From contig NZ_AUZM01000003.1 in assembly GCF_000478195.2 (NCBI RefSeq), positions 1-64,000 of the forward strand: DNA of 64,000 bases. Reading direction: 5' to 3'. Under the pieces are notes generated by a model, which did no database searches, was not told the DNA's origin, and saw nothing but the letters and a program-made list of their open reading frames with translations. A program made the position numbers and the translations under genes. Below are positions 12,979 to 28,975 of this stretch, one piece after another; position 1 is the stretch's first letter; every line of letters starts with the position of its first letter. This DNA comes from Lyngbya aestuarii BL J (lineage in GTDB: Bacteria; Cyanobacteriota; Cyanobacteriia; Cyanobacteriales; Microcoleaceae).

Positions 12979-13019
12979 TTAATCAAATATCAAGAAATAA
13001 TAGAAAATAGTTTTTGTTG

Positions 13020-16000
13020 GTTTCAATCCCTCATAGGGATTCTTGTTAATTGCAATCTGTGTAAATTTCAAGTTCGTTTTCGTAATTGGTTTCAATCCCT
13101 CATAGGGATTATTGTTAATTGCAACCGGACATTCACCAATATAAGAATCTTTGGTAATTCGTTTCAATCCCTCATAGGGATTTTTGTTAATTGCAATAAT
13201 TTTAAGATTTCAGCTTCAGAGTATCCATAGTGGTTTCAATCCCTCATAGGGATTTTTGTTAATTGCAATGACTGAAACAGATGTTTCCGAAGTTGGTGCA
13301 AAAATGGCGTTTCAATCCCTCATAGGGATTTTTGTTAATTGCAATTATTTAGATGATAAAGGTGGCTATGGTTATTTGGGTTTCAATCCCTCATAGGGAT
13401 TTTTGTTAATTGCAATTTGAGTTTTTAGAAGATTTAATGGCTTGCCTGCTGTTTCAATCCCTCATAGGGATTTTTGTTAATTGCAATCAATATCGTAAGT
13501 TGTTTTCTGTTGATAGTCCCGTTTCAATCCCTCATAGGGATTTTTGTTAATTGCAATTCAGAAACACCTTCCTCTATTTCTTCGGGGTATTCGTTTCAAT
13601 CCCTCATAGGGATTTTTGTTAATTGCAATGTTCAGAGGAGATGGTTGAATACCTGAAGAAAGTGTTTCAATCCCTCATAGGGATTTTTGTTAATTGCAAT
13701 TTGTTGTACTCTCTATCCCCTTTTGCCTGTGCTTCCGTTTCAATCCCTCATAGGGATTTTTGTTAATTGCAATCAGGTGCCACCGGGGCAAAAGGAGATA
13801 AAGGCGCGTTTCAATCCCTCATAGGGATTTTTGTTAATTGCAATACTTACTTGCCTTGGAGTTTCAAACTCATTTATTTTGTTTCAATCCCTCATAGGGA
13901 TTATTGTTAATTGCAACCGGATTAGTTTATCCATACGAACAATATTCGGACGTTTCAATCCCTCATAGGGATTATTGTTAATTGCAACAGCTCAACAATT
14001 GGGGTTGCAACTCAGCGATTCTCGTTTCAATCCCTCATAGGGATTCTTGTTAATTGCAACTAGCTGTGGCGTTGTGTGTGGTTAATATTCAACTCGTTTC
14101 AATCCCTCATAGGGATTCTTGTTAATTGCAACTTTAAAAAGAGGGGGAATGTTCCCCCAGTATGATGAGTTTCAATCCCTCATAGGGATTCTTGTTAAAC
14201 TTTACTATCTTGATCCCCGCTTAAACTTATTGTACTAGTTTCAATCCCTCATAGGGATTCTTGTTAATTGCAACAAGAATTCGCGGAACAGGAAAAAAGG
14301 GAGGAATCTAGTTTCAATCCCTCATAGGGATTCTTGTTAATTGCAACAAGACCTTCGAGGAAGACTGGCTTGAATATTGTAGTTTCAATCCCTCATAGGG
14401 ATTCTTGTTAATTGCAACTTGCAACTTGCGATCGCAATTATCAGTTACTTTCCCCTAGGTTTCAATCCCTCATAGGGATTCTTGTTAATTGCAACTGCAA
14501 TTTCTTGAAGTGGAATAAATCTACTCAAGGTTTCAATCCCTCATAGGGATTCTTGTTAATTGCAACCATGTCGTTCCCGGTGGCTGGCGACTGTTCAGCC
14601 TCTAAAGTTTCAATCCCTCATAGGGATTCTTGTTAATTGCAACGGATGCAGGCGAAGATGTTCTTGCGATCACTTCGGCGTTTCAATCCCTCATAGGGAT
14701 TCTTGTTAATTGCAACCGGCGTGTGTCACCAAAAGATAAATCCTCAGCGTTCCGGTTGTTTCAATCCCTCGTAGGGATTCTTGTTAATTGCAATTAAGCA
14801 AGGCTAGACGATAATCAAGCTCATCAACGTTTCAATCCCTCGTAGGGATTCTTGTTAATTGCAATGGGTAGCCGTCAACTGCAAGAGCATTGATGCCAAG
14901 TTTCAATCCCTCGTAGGGATTCTTGTTAATTGCAATTCATTTATGGCAAACCGCCCAACTGCTATTAATCACTACAGCAGGTTTCAATCCCTCGTAGGGA
15001 TTCTTGTTAATTGCAATATTTTGTATGGTTCTGGAATCCCATTTAAAGAGTCGTTTCAATCCCTCGTAGGGATTCTTGTTAATTGCAATTTGAGGGGGGT
15101 TGCGGACAACGTTGTTTATGAGGGTTTCAATCCCTCATAGGGATTATTGTTAATTGCAATATTCGAGATCGCGGTGAGGCAATAAGTCAAATCGCCAAGT
15201 TTCAATCCCTCATAGGGATTATTGTTAATTGCAATGTTTATTCCAGAACTCTGGAATTTAGTCATCAAATCTGTTTCAATCCCTCATAGGGATTATTGTT
15301 AATTGCAATCGTCCGCCTATTACTCAGAGAGGGTTGAATGCAGCGTTTCAATCCCTCATAGGGATTATTGTTAATTGCAATTATCCAGCCTCGATTAGCT
15401 GATTAACCGCTTCAATTTTATCTGGAGAGTTTCAATCCCTCATAGGGATTATTGTTAATTGCAATTTGTGTTTCCTCTTTGGCATAGTCACTCATGCTAG
15501 TTTCAATCCCTCATAGGGATTATTGTTAATTGCAATAGGCGGATGGGTCATCCCTAAACCTCTAAAATGGGATGTTTCAATCCCTCATAGGGATTATTGT
15601 TAATTGCAATCAGAAAATTTTTATCCAAGCATAGAACTTTACAAGTTTCAATCCCTCATAGGGATTATTGTTAATTGCAACTGGAAAGTATTCAATAATT
15701 CTTAGTGAAAACTTAGTTTTTGCTTTGTTTCAATCCCTCATAGGGATTCTTGTTAATTGCAACAGGCTTTTTCTATCTGATTAAAGAAGTTTGCGGTTTC
15801 AATCCCTCATAGGGATTCTTGTTAATTGCAACTACGGCTTTACAGTTTGAAAACCCAGGTGATTCTTGGGGGTTTCAATCCCTCATAGGGATTCTTGTTA
15901 ATTGCAACTTTAACAAACTCATCATTGGATTTGGAGAGCAGTCAACGGTTTCAATCCCTCATAGGGATTCTTGTTAATTGCAACTATTTCGGAGTTCCAA

Positions 16001-17081
16001 AGGATGTGGGCCTGTAAAACCTTGTTTCAATCCCTCATAGGGATTCTTGTTAATTGCAACGAAACCATAATATCGGGCGTTGGTATAGTTCCAGTTTCAA
16101 TCCCTCATAGGGATTCTTGTTAATTGCAACAATGGAGGACAGGGGGACAGTTTATAAGTATCCCACGTTTCAATCCCTCATAGGGATTCTTGTTAATTGC
16201 AACAGTTTGCACTCCAGCAACCGCAGAGTCAACTCCAGTTTCAATCCCTCATAGGGATTCTTGTTAATTGCAACGATTCGGATTGGGAACAACCATTTAC
16301 GCCAAAGCAAATGTTTCAATCCCTCATAGGGATTCTTGTTAATTGCAACTTTTACTCTAGTAGTAGAGTAATTTTCCTTGAAATAATGTTTCAATCCCTC
16401 ATAGGGATTCTTGTTAATTGCAACGATATTTTAATTAATGGAAGGTAAGGATTAAAAGTCTGTGTTTCAATCCCTCATAGGGATTCTTGTTAATTGCAAC
16501 CGATAGCCATTTTAATTTCAGGTAGATTAGCCATGTTTCAATCCCTCATAGGGATTCTTGTTAATTGCAACAATAGAATCATAAAGATTAATCAAAGTAT
16601 TTGCAAAGTTTCAATCCCTCATAGGGATTCTTGTTAATTGCAACACGCACAAGGAAGTTCATACGGCTCCCTCCTACTCTGGTTTCAATCCCTCATAGGG
16701 ATTCTTGTTAATTGCAACTGGTATCACTAGGAATCTTTTGTAATGGATTCTTTGTTTCAATCCCTCATAGGGATTCTTGTTAATTGCAACAATCGCTTCG
16801 CAGTGTACTGAATCTGAATCAATCGGTTTCAATCCCTCATAGGGATTCTTGTTAATTGCAACAAAGCATTTGTTTCCGAATGGTGTCCCCCTGCAAGTTT
16901 CAATCCCTCATAGGGATTCTTGTTAATTGCAACCATCAGTTGCAGAAACGCTGTTACAGATGGATGCGTTTCAATCCCTCATAGGGATTCTTGTTAATTG
17001 CAACTACCATGTCGCAATTTGCACCGCCTAAAATTTCTAGAGCCGTTTCAATCCCTCATAGGGATTCTTGTTAATTGCAAC
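13020..17081 (-). CRISPR. CRISPR array, 56 repeats and 55 spacers, no cas genes in the window
   Basis: The 37-nt repeat on the plus strand begins GTTTCAATCCCT and ends GTTAATTGCAAC. Its core AATCCCT-CAT-AGGGATT is a 7-bp stem with a 3-nt loop. Spacers are 32-47 nt, mostly 34-39. On the minus strand the repeat ends in ATTGAAAC, the usual 8-nt crRNA 5' tag, and a strong promoter lies at 17150-17178 facing left; transcription is therefore inferred to be leftward, with the leader on the right. Position 23 of the plus-strand repeat varies C/T/A, the last base varies C/T, and five repeats have CGT in the loop. These alleles come in blocks. The tag and repeat type resemble cyanobacterial type III or I-D arrays, but the subtype cannot be set without cas genes. 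Confidence 0.97.
14169..14200 (-). repeat. Variant CRISPR repeat with a 5-nt deletion
   Basis: The 17th repeat from the left is 32 nt. It matches the consensus up to GTTAA and then reads AC, so TTGCA is missing. All other repeats are 37 nt. Confidence 0.85.
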
Positions 17082-26497: not shown

Positions 26498-28975
26498 TCA
26501 GGTTTGGGAAAACTGGGGCTGAAAATTACTTTGATGTAAGGTTAACAGAGTCAAGTTTTTGAATAACCAATAATTGCGGTAATCAAACAACACAATATCC
26601 AATGCTTCGACAAGATTCACCTCTAAATCTTTATTTTGGATATCGACAATCATCTGATAGATGAGTTCAAAGATGATTCGTTGTTCTTTATCCATAAACA
26701 CAAAATTACCATTCTCGGCATTGCGAAATTGTTCAAGAAATTCAGCACTTTTTTTCGCCGTAATCAAACTTTCACGGGATTCTCGACAGAGATTAAATTG
26801 AATTTCAGGATGATTAATGACTAATTCATTCCAGTTGCGAATGCGGTGATAAAATCGAGTTCCGCCTTGATGTAAAAAACCCACAGCAAATTGATGAGTT
26901 GCCGTTTGAATGACTAAATGTTCAGGAAGAACCCGTCGCCCTAAGCGTAAGACATCAAATTCAAGCGGAGAAATGACTGATCGCAAAGACTCCAAAATCG
27001 TCGTTAATTTTCCAAGATCATCACTTTCAGTAATAATTTGAGGTTTGCTGTAGTTTTCTTCTAAACTCAGACGTTGCTGGCTTAAATAGTCTTGAACTTG
27101 TAGCTTGATGGGGGAATTTTGGGGAACATGAGGTGTAATAACCGAGGGCGGATCAGATAAGATTCCATTCCCATTTTCAGTGATATTTAAGGTTTGGGTA
27201 ATTTTGAGAATCACCTGTTTCATTTGGGCGACTTCTGCGGTTAGCTGTTGAATTTGTTGTTCAACTTCGGGTTCAACAGTAGAAGTATTGGAGATTGAAG
27301 ATAAACGTTTGGGTAGGGAAATTCCTTCTATTTTGTAGCGGTAATAATCTGCTGCTGTATTGAGTGTAGCCCGAATTGAAACTTGTTCTAAAATCGTTTG
27401 AATTTCATCGGGTTCAAAAAGTTCAGAGATAGAAACTTCTGCGGTTTGTAGTTTTAAATTCAGCAGTTGTATCATTTGTTGATTGGCGGGTTTTGAGAGG
27501 AAAATCTGAGATTGAGAAACCCGATCTACAATGGAACCATCAAAGACGTGTTGAAATTGTTGCCAACGATCCGGAAAGAGATTTAAAATAATTAAGCTAT
27601 TGGGAACATGGGTAAATATTTCTTTAATGGATTCTCCAAAACTTTGTAAAAGAGGTTCGTTGGCTTTTAAACCTAGTCCTTCTAACTGATCAAAGATAAT
27701 AATCAAAGGTTCATCGAGTAAAGACAATTTACTCAAGACTTCTAACGCAGCCAGTGAAATTTCTTCCCGACTCCAATCTTCTCCCCAACTTTCGAGTCCA
27801 ACTTTATTGAGTTCTTCGGAAGATAAGTCATTTAAAGCTAACCATTGGGTAATAATTTGACGACGGTTGAAGTCAGTATAGCCACAAAAACGAATAATTC
27901 CTTTGAGAATTTGGGGGGCGTATCCGGCAGAAGAAAAGTTTCGCAACCACCAATCAGAAGCCCGTTTTTCAATATGTTGCCAATATTCTCGTTTGGTTTT
28001 CGTTTCTTCTTGTCCTAACTCGGTGAATAAGTTGAGATTTCCATCTTCAATAACTTGTAAGATTTTTTCATCTTTTTGGATTTTTGCGGTGGAATAGTAA
28101 TCTTCAGTTTTAATAATTTTGGCAAAACTATTGGCTAGCAGATGTTCAAGTTGGGTGCGATCACTTCCGGGAACATTTTGGATTAAAGATTCTAATATTC
28201 GGCTATAGGTATGAAATAAAACTGTATCTTTATTATTAGGTTGACGAATAAATAATAATCGGTTTGTTTGAAGTAAATCCTTCGCCAGACGCATCATTAA
28301 ATGAGTTTTGCCTGCTCCTGGTTCTCCAATGACAACCGCCCCTTTACTTTGATGATTGGGATCTTGTTTGATATCAATAATAATAGATTTTAAACGTTCA
28401 AACTCATTTTGAAAAATTGAGCGAAAGTCTACATGATCTTGAAACGGAGTATCAACACGACTAGAACCAAAAGGATTAGGTCTTTTTTTGAGTCTAACCT
28501 TTAAAAATTCATTCACCATCCGTCGATAAAGTTGATAGGTAAACAACGCATCATATTTAGCACGATGGGCGGAATCATGATTAAATATTTTACCGTCTAA
28601 CTTCAGATTTAGATGCTGACTTAACGCTTCTAAAGAATGGCTACCCAGTTCGGGTAAATGCTGTTGGGCGAGTTCAAAACTACACTCAAAAACTAAATGA
28701 GGCGTGGGAATTCCTACCGCCCGAAAGCTATTACGCAGCACGTCAATATCATGTCTTGCATAATGACAGATAATAGTTTTAGAATGAGCGAAGTTCAAAA
28801 AATCAGTAATAATGGTTTTGAGGGGTTTAGTTTTCGGACTAATTTTAGGATTATTAGGGTGATTGTCTGCCCAAGCTTCATAGATTAGTTTTCCCTGATG
28901 ATCAACAATCGCTATTTCCCGCAGAATTGGCTGTCCTTCGGTATCAATTACAATAAAGTCGGGATGAAATTTCAT
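26498..28975 (-). CDS. DEDDh 3'-5' exonuclease fused to a P-loop ATPase and an unknown C-terminal domain
   Basis: 825 residues from ATG 28975. Residues 1-155 form an RNase T/DnaQ-like exonuclease with all five key residues: Asp11 and Glu13 (FIVIDTEG), Asp76 (HYARHDIDVL), His137 and Asp142 (HRAKYDAL). Residues 190-500 form a P-loop ATPase with Walker A GEPGAGKT (217-224) and Walker B LIIIFDQ (Asp429), resembling AAA/STAND-type modules. A short coiled coil (570-595) precedes an unknown 180-residue C-terminal domain. The sequence is not broken. It could act in DNA or RNA repair or in phage defence; neither is shown by the context, where the neighbours are speD and a small exported protein. Confidence 0.85.
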   Translation of the reverse strand: MKFHPDFIVIDTEGQPILREIAIVDHQGKLIYEAWADNHPNNPKISPKTKPLKTIITDFLNFAHSKTIICHYARHDIDVLRNSFRAVGIPTPHLVFECSFELAQQHLPELGSHSLEALSQHLNLKLDGKIFNHDSAHRAKYDALFTYQLYRRMVNEFLKVRLKKRPNPFGSSRVDTPFQDHVDFRSIFQNEFERLKSIIIDIKQDPNHQSKGAVVIGEPGAGKTHLMMRLAKDLLQTNRLLFIRQPNNKDTVLFHTYSRILESLIQNVPGSDRTQLEHLLANSFAKIIKTEDYYSTAKIQKDEKILQVIEDGNLNLFTELGQEETKTKREYWQHIEKRASDWWLRNFSSAGYAPQILKGIIRFCGYTDFNRRQIITQWLALNDLSSEELNKVGLESWGEDWSREEISLAALEVLSKLSLLDEPLIIIFDQLEGLGLKANEPLLQSFGESIKEIFTHVPNSLIILNLFPDRWQQFQHVFDGSIVDRVSQSQIFLSKPANQQMIQLLNLKLQTAEVSISELFEPDEIQTILEQVSIRATLNTAADYYRYKIEGISLPKRLSSISNTSTVEPEVEQQIQQLTAEVAQMKQVILKITQTLNITENGNGILSDPPSVITPHVPQNSPIKLQVQDYLSQQRLSLEENYSKPQIITESDDLGKLTTILESLRSVISPLEFDVLRLGRRVLPEHLVIQTATHQFAVGFLHQGGTRFYHRIRNWNELVINHPEIQFNLCRESRESLITAKKSAEFLEQFRNAENGNFVFMDKEQRIIFELIYQMIVDIQNKDLEVNLVEALDIVLFDYRNYWLFKNLTLLTLHQSNFQPQFSQT

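Follow-up and report, generated by a model that had tools for sequence, protein, structure and literature searches.

ATPases of the ORC/CDC6 type have been described by Rakesh, Aravind and Krishnan in 2024 (PMC10853773) in gene neighbourhoods that combine the ATPase, which carries an inactive restriction endonuclease (REase) domain, with an active REase, a HerA/FtsK protein and a DndG-like wHTH protein, and in which a 3'-5' exonuclease is sometimes fused to HerA/FtsK. The counter-invader role of these ORC/CDC6-HerA/FtsK capture systems is itself presented as a prediction. Here we describe a single gene, located in a 64,000-nucleotide stretch of DNA (henceforth referred to as the window), in which a DEDDh exonuclease is joined to a predicted AAA+ ATPase. 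No published fusion of a DEDDh exonuclease and this ATPase in one gene was found in the literature searched, and in the sections of PMC10853773 consulted none of the ATPases is described as carrying a fused DEDDh exonuclease. Among curated families, the protein has no full-length PADLOC or NCBIfam match (none of the best 25 NCBIfam models listed reaches its cut-off), partial PADLOC matches include those to DEDDh and to the exonuclease part of PDC-S48, and a phmmer search of the window protein against PDB returned chance matches only. The preliminary description of this DNA had named no described system with its domains in this order, and neither the Pfam, NCBIfam and PADLOC searches nor the literature searched turned one up.

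Gene and domain architecture

The gene occupies positions 26498..28975 on the minus strand (stop codon at 26498-26500) and encodes 825 aa in a frame that, read along the complement from 28975 to 26498, opens with ATG and contains no internal stops. We ruled out a chance open reading frame because full-length homologues that are 64-67% identical occur in related genera and because dN/dS is low in close pairs (0.06-0.24 for the exonuclease and 0.03-0.19 for the ATPase); the frame initially described as single and intact is thus a stop-free one with conserved homologues. The gene is flanked on one side by an oppositely oriented SAM-decarboxylase-like gene and on the other by a 112-aa ORF ~325 bp away, and, in agreement with the initial view that it stands alone, no operon partner is evident in the window. 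A CRISPR array of ~56 repeats (GTTTCAATCCCTCATAGGGATT...), spaced mostly by 69-81 bp, lies at positions 13012-17081 of the window, 9.4 kb from the gene, and no cas genes were noticed alongside it when the whole window was inspected by eye.

The architecture of exonuclease, ATPase and C-terminal domain is strongly supported. Residues 1-160 (28496..28975, minus strand) form a DEDDh (RNase T/DnaQ-like) 3'-5' exonuclease according to Pfam, profile searches, Foldseek and the catalytic residues. Pfam RNase_T was matched at residues 39-150 with an E-value of 1.8e-5, above the family cut-off, a PDB profile search, which picked up mainly this half of the protein, matched it to the PolC and DnaQ exonucleases, and Foldseek matched it to the DnaQ domain 8h18/8h2f; the best NCBIfam match, exonuclease-type DinG, was below cut-off. 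The acidic DEDD residues and the motif III histidine are all present, which places the domain among the DEDDh 3'-5' exonucleases of the RNase T/DnaQ superfamily, and the five catalytic residues (D11, E13, D76, H137 and D142) sit exactly where they had first been placed. All five are kept in 45 of the 46 full-length homologues in an alignment drawn from plasmids as well as from across the phylum, the sole exception being a homologue with E13V and D142E (L031, on the same contig as L042).

Residues 161-560 (27296..28495, minus strand) form a predicted AAA+ ATPase, ORC/CDC6- or STAND-like, which opens with a conserved NPF motif and is recognised by AAA_16 and by a profile-profile match to the A4 family discussed below. 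The Walker A motif (residues 217-224, GEPGAGKT; 28304..28327, minus strand) and the Walker B motif (residues 425-429, IIIFD, followed by QLE; 27689..27703, minus strand), with Asp429, were located as originally reported, and none of the 46 full-length homologues lacks the Walker A lysine or the Walker B aspartate. The AAA_16 match of the window protein (residues 206-380, E-value 1.9e-6) falls just below the Pfam family cut-off and that of the homologue L038 lies above it; an ORC-CDC6-like model was matched by the homologue L059 only (E-value 0.013), and the confidence of the ATPase-domain model is low. Of all the domains, the ATPase varies least in the alignment, and no helicase domain was found in the 825-aa protein using Pfam.

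The ATPase is followed by a predicted coiled coil and variable linker (residues 561-621; 27113..27295, minus strand; model helix 569-598), which has a mean identity to the window protein of just 19% in the alignment. Since DnaQ domains dominated the structure search of the full model, the C-terminal part (residues 615-825) was modelled by itself with AlphaFold2 (pLDDT 83, pTM 0.81). The top Foldseek matches were XisH, Bax1 and EcoT38I, with BamHI, MspJI, Cap4 and Mus81 lower, all of which we take to share the restriction-endonuclease (PD-(D/E)XK) fold; the E-values (1e-3 to a few 1e-2) and probabilities (up to 1.00) make these matches weak but consistent. Judged from the model, residues 622-785 (26621..27112, minus strand) likely have a restriction-endonuclease-like fold. 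On the putative second strand a P-(E/D) pair (684-685) is retained, and the putative third strand has no conserved (D/E)xK in the homologue alignment, for which reason we read the domain as probably catalytically inactive; an inactive REase-like domain of this kind probably binds DNA or protein. The fusion of an exonuclease to a P-loop ATPase was therefore correctly recognised at the outset, whereas the C-terminal domain, then called unknown, can now be given a likely REase-like fold on the strength of Foldseek. The dN/dS of this domain in close pairs is 0.07-0.33 where computable, and purifying selection is seen in such pairs on every domain.

The wider ATPase family and a proposed mechanism

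Weak homologue matches led to a cyanobacterial family of ATPases of ~600-710 aa (the A4 family), with which residues 161-810 of the window protein are collinear in a profile-profile comparison (prob 99.8, E-value 1.7e-30); a smaller sample of the family gave a profile match too. The family is present in 43 of 194 cyanobacterial genomes (~22%), and its genes sit in repeated operons of two types. Type A operons contain a ~270-aa winged-helix protein, one or two ATPases and an exonuclease/PD-(D/E)XK/FtsK protein (domains DNA_pol_A_exo1 exonuclease, PD-(D/E)XK, FtsK-alpha and FtsK), for which SspH was the best PADLOC match in all three examined; these operons fit the description in PMC10853773. 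Type B operons contain a ~230-aa winged-helix-like protein, a ~620-aa ATPase and a DUF1802 protein with a weak Mrr-like match, and one complete example (wHTH-like, ATPase, DUF1802/Mrr-like) lies in the window's own genome, on contig C38 (L142:6112-10180). At another locus (L132:12008-15370) a single operon protein combines exonuclease, protein kinase and FtsK domains, the kinase replacing the PD-(D/E)XK of relatives in a module swap, and two further operons (L122:6872-15415 and L124:5418-10403) contain two or three ATPase copies each, which suggests a hetero-oligomer.

None of the operon partners (wHTH, FtsK, DUF1802) was found near the fused gene in the neighbourhoods searched. Alignment of the fused DEDDh exonuclease with that of the operons is weak (prob 27%), and the two belong to different subfamilies; a recent common origin was rejected on account of this weak alignment, which points instead to a fused nuclease that was probably recruited independently. 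This suggests that 3'-5' exonucleases have been recruited repeatedly to the same ATPase.

Our main argument for a joint nuclease-ATPase mechanism is that this ATPase family is recurrently coupled to nucleases, whether by fusion in cis, as here, or in trans, as in the operons. We give an even chance to the proposal that this one polypeptide is a 3'-5' exonuclease under ATP control, its most likely role being to limit DNA that invades the cell, in the manner of a scaled-down form of the predicted ORC/CDC6 'HerA/FtsK capture' systems. The AAA+ part would recognise or assemble on particular DNA, such as replicating or incoming plasmid or phage DNA, in an ATP-dependent manner; the inactive REase-like part would help to recognise DNA or a partner; and the ATPase would position or license the tethered exonuclease, which would digest 3' ends. 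More tentatively, with confidence somewhat short of even, we suggest that this one protein may act as an immune or anti-plasmid system whose ORC/CDC6-type ATPase would load the fused exonuclease onto invading DNA, and we are equally guarded about the idea that the single polypeptide replaces the separate wHTH, ATPase and exonuclease/FtsK subunits of the operons.

Distribution, neighbourhoods and decay

The gene is present in 32 of 386 cyanobacterial genomes, representing 22 of 143 genera, and absent from ~92% of genomes; an exact-peptide scan of contigs, which gave three loci, was too strict and was not used for distribution. Nine plasmids match, all of them cyanobacterial, which describes the range seen and not a proven limit. 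Phage records gave no matches to the gene, and a single short match to a viral contig (31% identity) was disregarded. On a Calothrix plasmid (L034:1-14793) the homologue has directly upstream a GmrSD_N gene and a set comprising a SNF2 helicase, a methyltransferase, a helicase, an MZB protein and PLD, which we call DISARM-like from gene content only. The Nostoc HK-01 plasmid copy adjoins a GmrSD protein, the Nostoc C057 plasmid copy GmrSD_N pieces and the Tolypothrix plasmid copy DUF87/NurA genes, a DUF87/HerA gene being near one plasmid copy only. The Synechococcus elongatus IITB3 plasmid copy adjoins an MmeI-type enzyme and a parA-type gene, and the S. elongatus PCC 11801 plasmid copy TIR and macro proteins and a parA-type and then a parB-type gene. 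A function belonging to plasmids or mobile elements (partition, or the exclusion of competing replicons) and taken over by chromosomes at a later stage would account for the partition genes on these two plasmids, but we consider it very improbable given that most copies are chromosomal, that phage matches are absent and that partition genes are not consistently adjacent.

Chromosomal copies have mostly housekeeping neighbours and in places a fixed locus within a genus. Inspection by eye of protein sequences revealed a RAMP-type gene and a CRISPR array near one copy (L098), Cas1/Cas2-like genes and an array near another (L114), and an HsdM-like gene (L096) and a TIR-like protein (L105) near two more. 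When the genes nearest to chromosomal copies (36 loci, 139 proteins) were compared by PADLOC with 116 genes of the same loci more than 5 kb away, no clear defence enrichment was seen in what is a coarse comparison, for which only the commonest families were reported and two long proteins left out. Matches such as those to Cas12f or BrxHI among the neighbours were rejected as candidates; from the family names we take them to be generic TnpB or helicase domains. As to an association of homologues with defence islands, proposed at the outset as a check, defence-type genes lie beside the plasmid copies, considered with no plasmid control set, and no PADLOC enrichment is visible for the chromosomal ones. 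The homologues are not always in core operons, an arrangement that had been named at the outset as one that would refute the initial view.

The main rival to a defence role is DNA repair or fork processing, in which DNA that is damaged or stalled would be recognised by the ATPase and trimmed at its 3' ends by the DEDDh exonuclease. A gene that is mostly chromosomal, stable within genera, surrounded by ordinary neighbours and under strong purifying selection would suit such an enzyme, as would exonuclease-type DinG being the best NCBIfam match of the exonuclease and the existence of a repair-type fusion, exonuclease-DinG (PMC12345164), and of a repair-type pair, MrfAB, with MrfB and its helicase (PMC10889028). 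We nevertheless regard repair as possible but on the unlikely side: ~92% of the sampled cyanobacterial genomes do without the gene, plasmids carry it amid restriction genes, its ATPase family is otherwise tied to operons with FtsK and nucleases, and the fused protein has no helicase domain that we could find.

In seven genomes from two genera, which form one clade, the protein is 667-682 aa long, begins at the NPF motif and lacks the exonuclease, of which no remnant was found in the loci; the ATPase of this clade is still under selection. It might therefore be the ATPase and REase-like part that forms the core of the function, as a sensor, regulator or scaffold bound to DNA, with the exonuclease an optional accessory, a reading with which the clean absence at the NPF boundary, the one homologue with both E13V and D142E and the high conservation of the ATPase agree. 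It is rendered improbable by the retention of the five catalytic residues in 45 of 46 full-length copies and by an exonuclease dN/dS of <0.25 in the pairs tested. Elsewhere copies have decayed or been disrupted: the copy in one genome (G009) is split by a stop, an insert of ~2 kb breaks up the Mojavia copy (L033:7474-11866) close to Walker A, and in G420 a stop-filled fragment is all that is left, bordered by the two gene families that also border the intact gene of G365 (L101 compared with L112). A group II intron was rejected for the Mojavia insert, whose ORFs appeared more transposase-like by eye, and we refer to it as an insertion only. Damage of this sort, found in place in several genomes, is typical of a dispensable gene.

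Overall, a defence role is plausible, with chances about evenly divided. Limitation of invading DNA is favoured by features read from sequence (conserved active sites, purifying selection, kinship with the A4 operons and the REase-like fold) and by the patchy distribution, the plasmid copies beside restriction/defence-type genes and the decay in situ. Against it stand the chromosomal copies, mostly alone among housekeeping genes with no visible PADLOC enrichment and in places at a fixed locus within a genus, the clade of seven genomes that dropped the exonuclease and kept the ATPase under selection, the lack of wHTH, FtsK or DUF1802 near the fused gene, the weak alignment of the fused to the operon exonuclease, and the predicted nature of the published defence assignment of the capture systems. 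If the proposal is true, the window gene would be the smallest testable representative of the predicted counter-invader class, and a single gene whose two active sites can be mutated separately is far simpler to test than an operon of several genes. Copies of it are carried by plasmids of S. elongatus, a species used in the laboratory. The operons of the A4 family, in turn, suggest that cyanobacteria have a broad nuclease machinery that has received little study.

Comparison with known systems

The Cas2-DEDDh trimmer-integrase (PMC10284694) resembles the window protein in having a DEDDh exonuclease within a DNA-handling complex, but the window protein has no Cas2 and cas genes are absent near most copies. 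In the MrfAB repair pair (PMC10889028) a DEDDh exonuclease likewise works with an ATPase partner, whereas the window protein has no helicase. Exonuclease-type DinG (PMC12345164) shares the order in which a 3'-5' exonuclease at the N-terminus precedes a domain that uses ATP; in the window protein, however, that domain is a predicted AAA+ ATPase and not an SF2 helicase, and the REase-like domain is extra. The effectors with a CDC6/ORC1 NTPase and C-terminal REase, a class mentioned in PMC10853773, have an NTPase followed by a C-terminal REase-like domain as the window protein does, but the latter adds an N-terminal exonuclease and its REase-like domain is probably inactive.

With the ORC/CDC6-HerA/FtsK capture systems of PMC10853773 the window protein shares full-length homology of its ATPase to the ATPases of cyanobacterial operons that fit the description, a probably inactive REase-like domain after the ATPase core (from weak but consistent Foldseek matches) and a 3'-5' exonuclease, which is present in some such systems. 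It differs in being one gene where those systems have three or more, in carrying an exonuclease of the DEDDh type on the ATPase where theirs is of the DNA_pol_A_exo1 type and on HerA/FtsK, and in having no HerA/FtsK, active REase or wHTH partner nearby. Specifically, no homologue of the operons' FtsK partner occurred in any neighbourhood searched, no DndG-like wHTH partner was found in the same neighbourhoods, and the C-terminal domain of the fused protein has no (D/E)xK of an active REase, the exonuclease being present instead. Because these three defining partners or features were not found, we do not class the window gene with the HerA/FtsK capture systems; it is probably a single-gene nuclease-ATPase module that may nevertheless work like them, and we read it as a one-gene variant of the predicted counter-invader kind with its exonuclease fused in cis.
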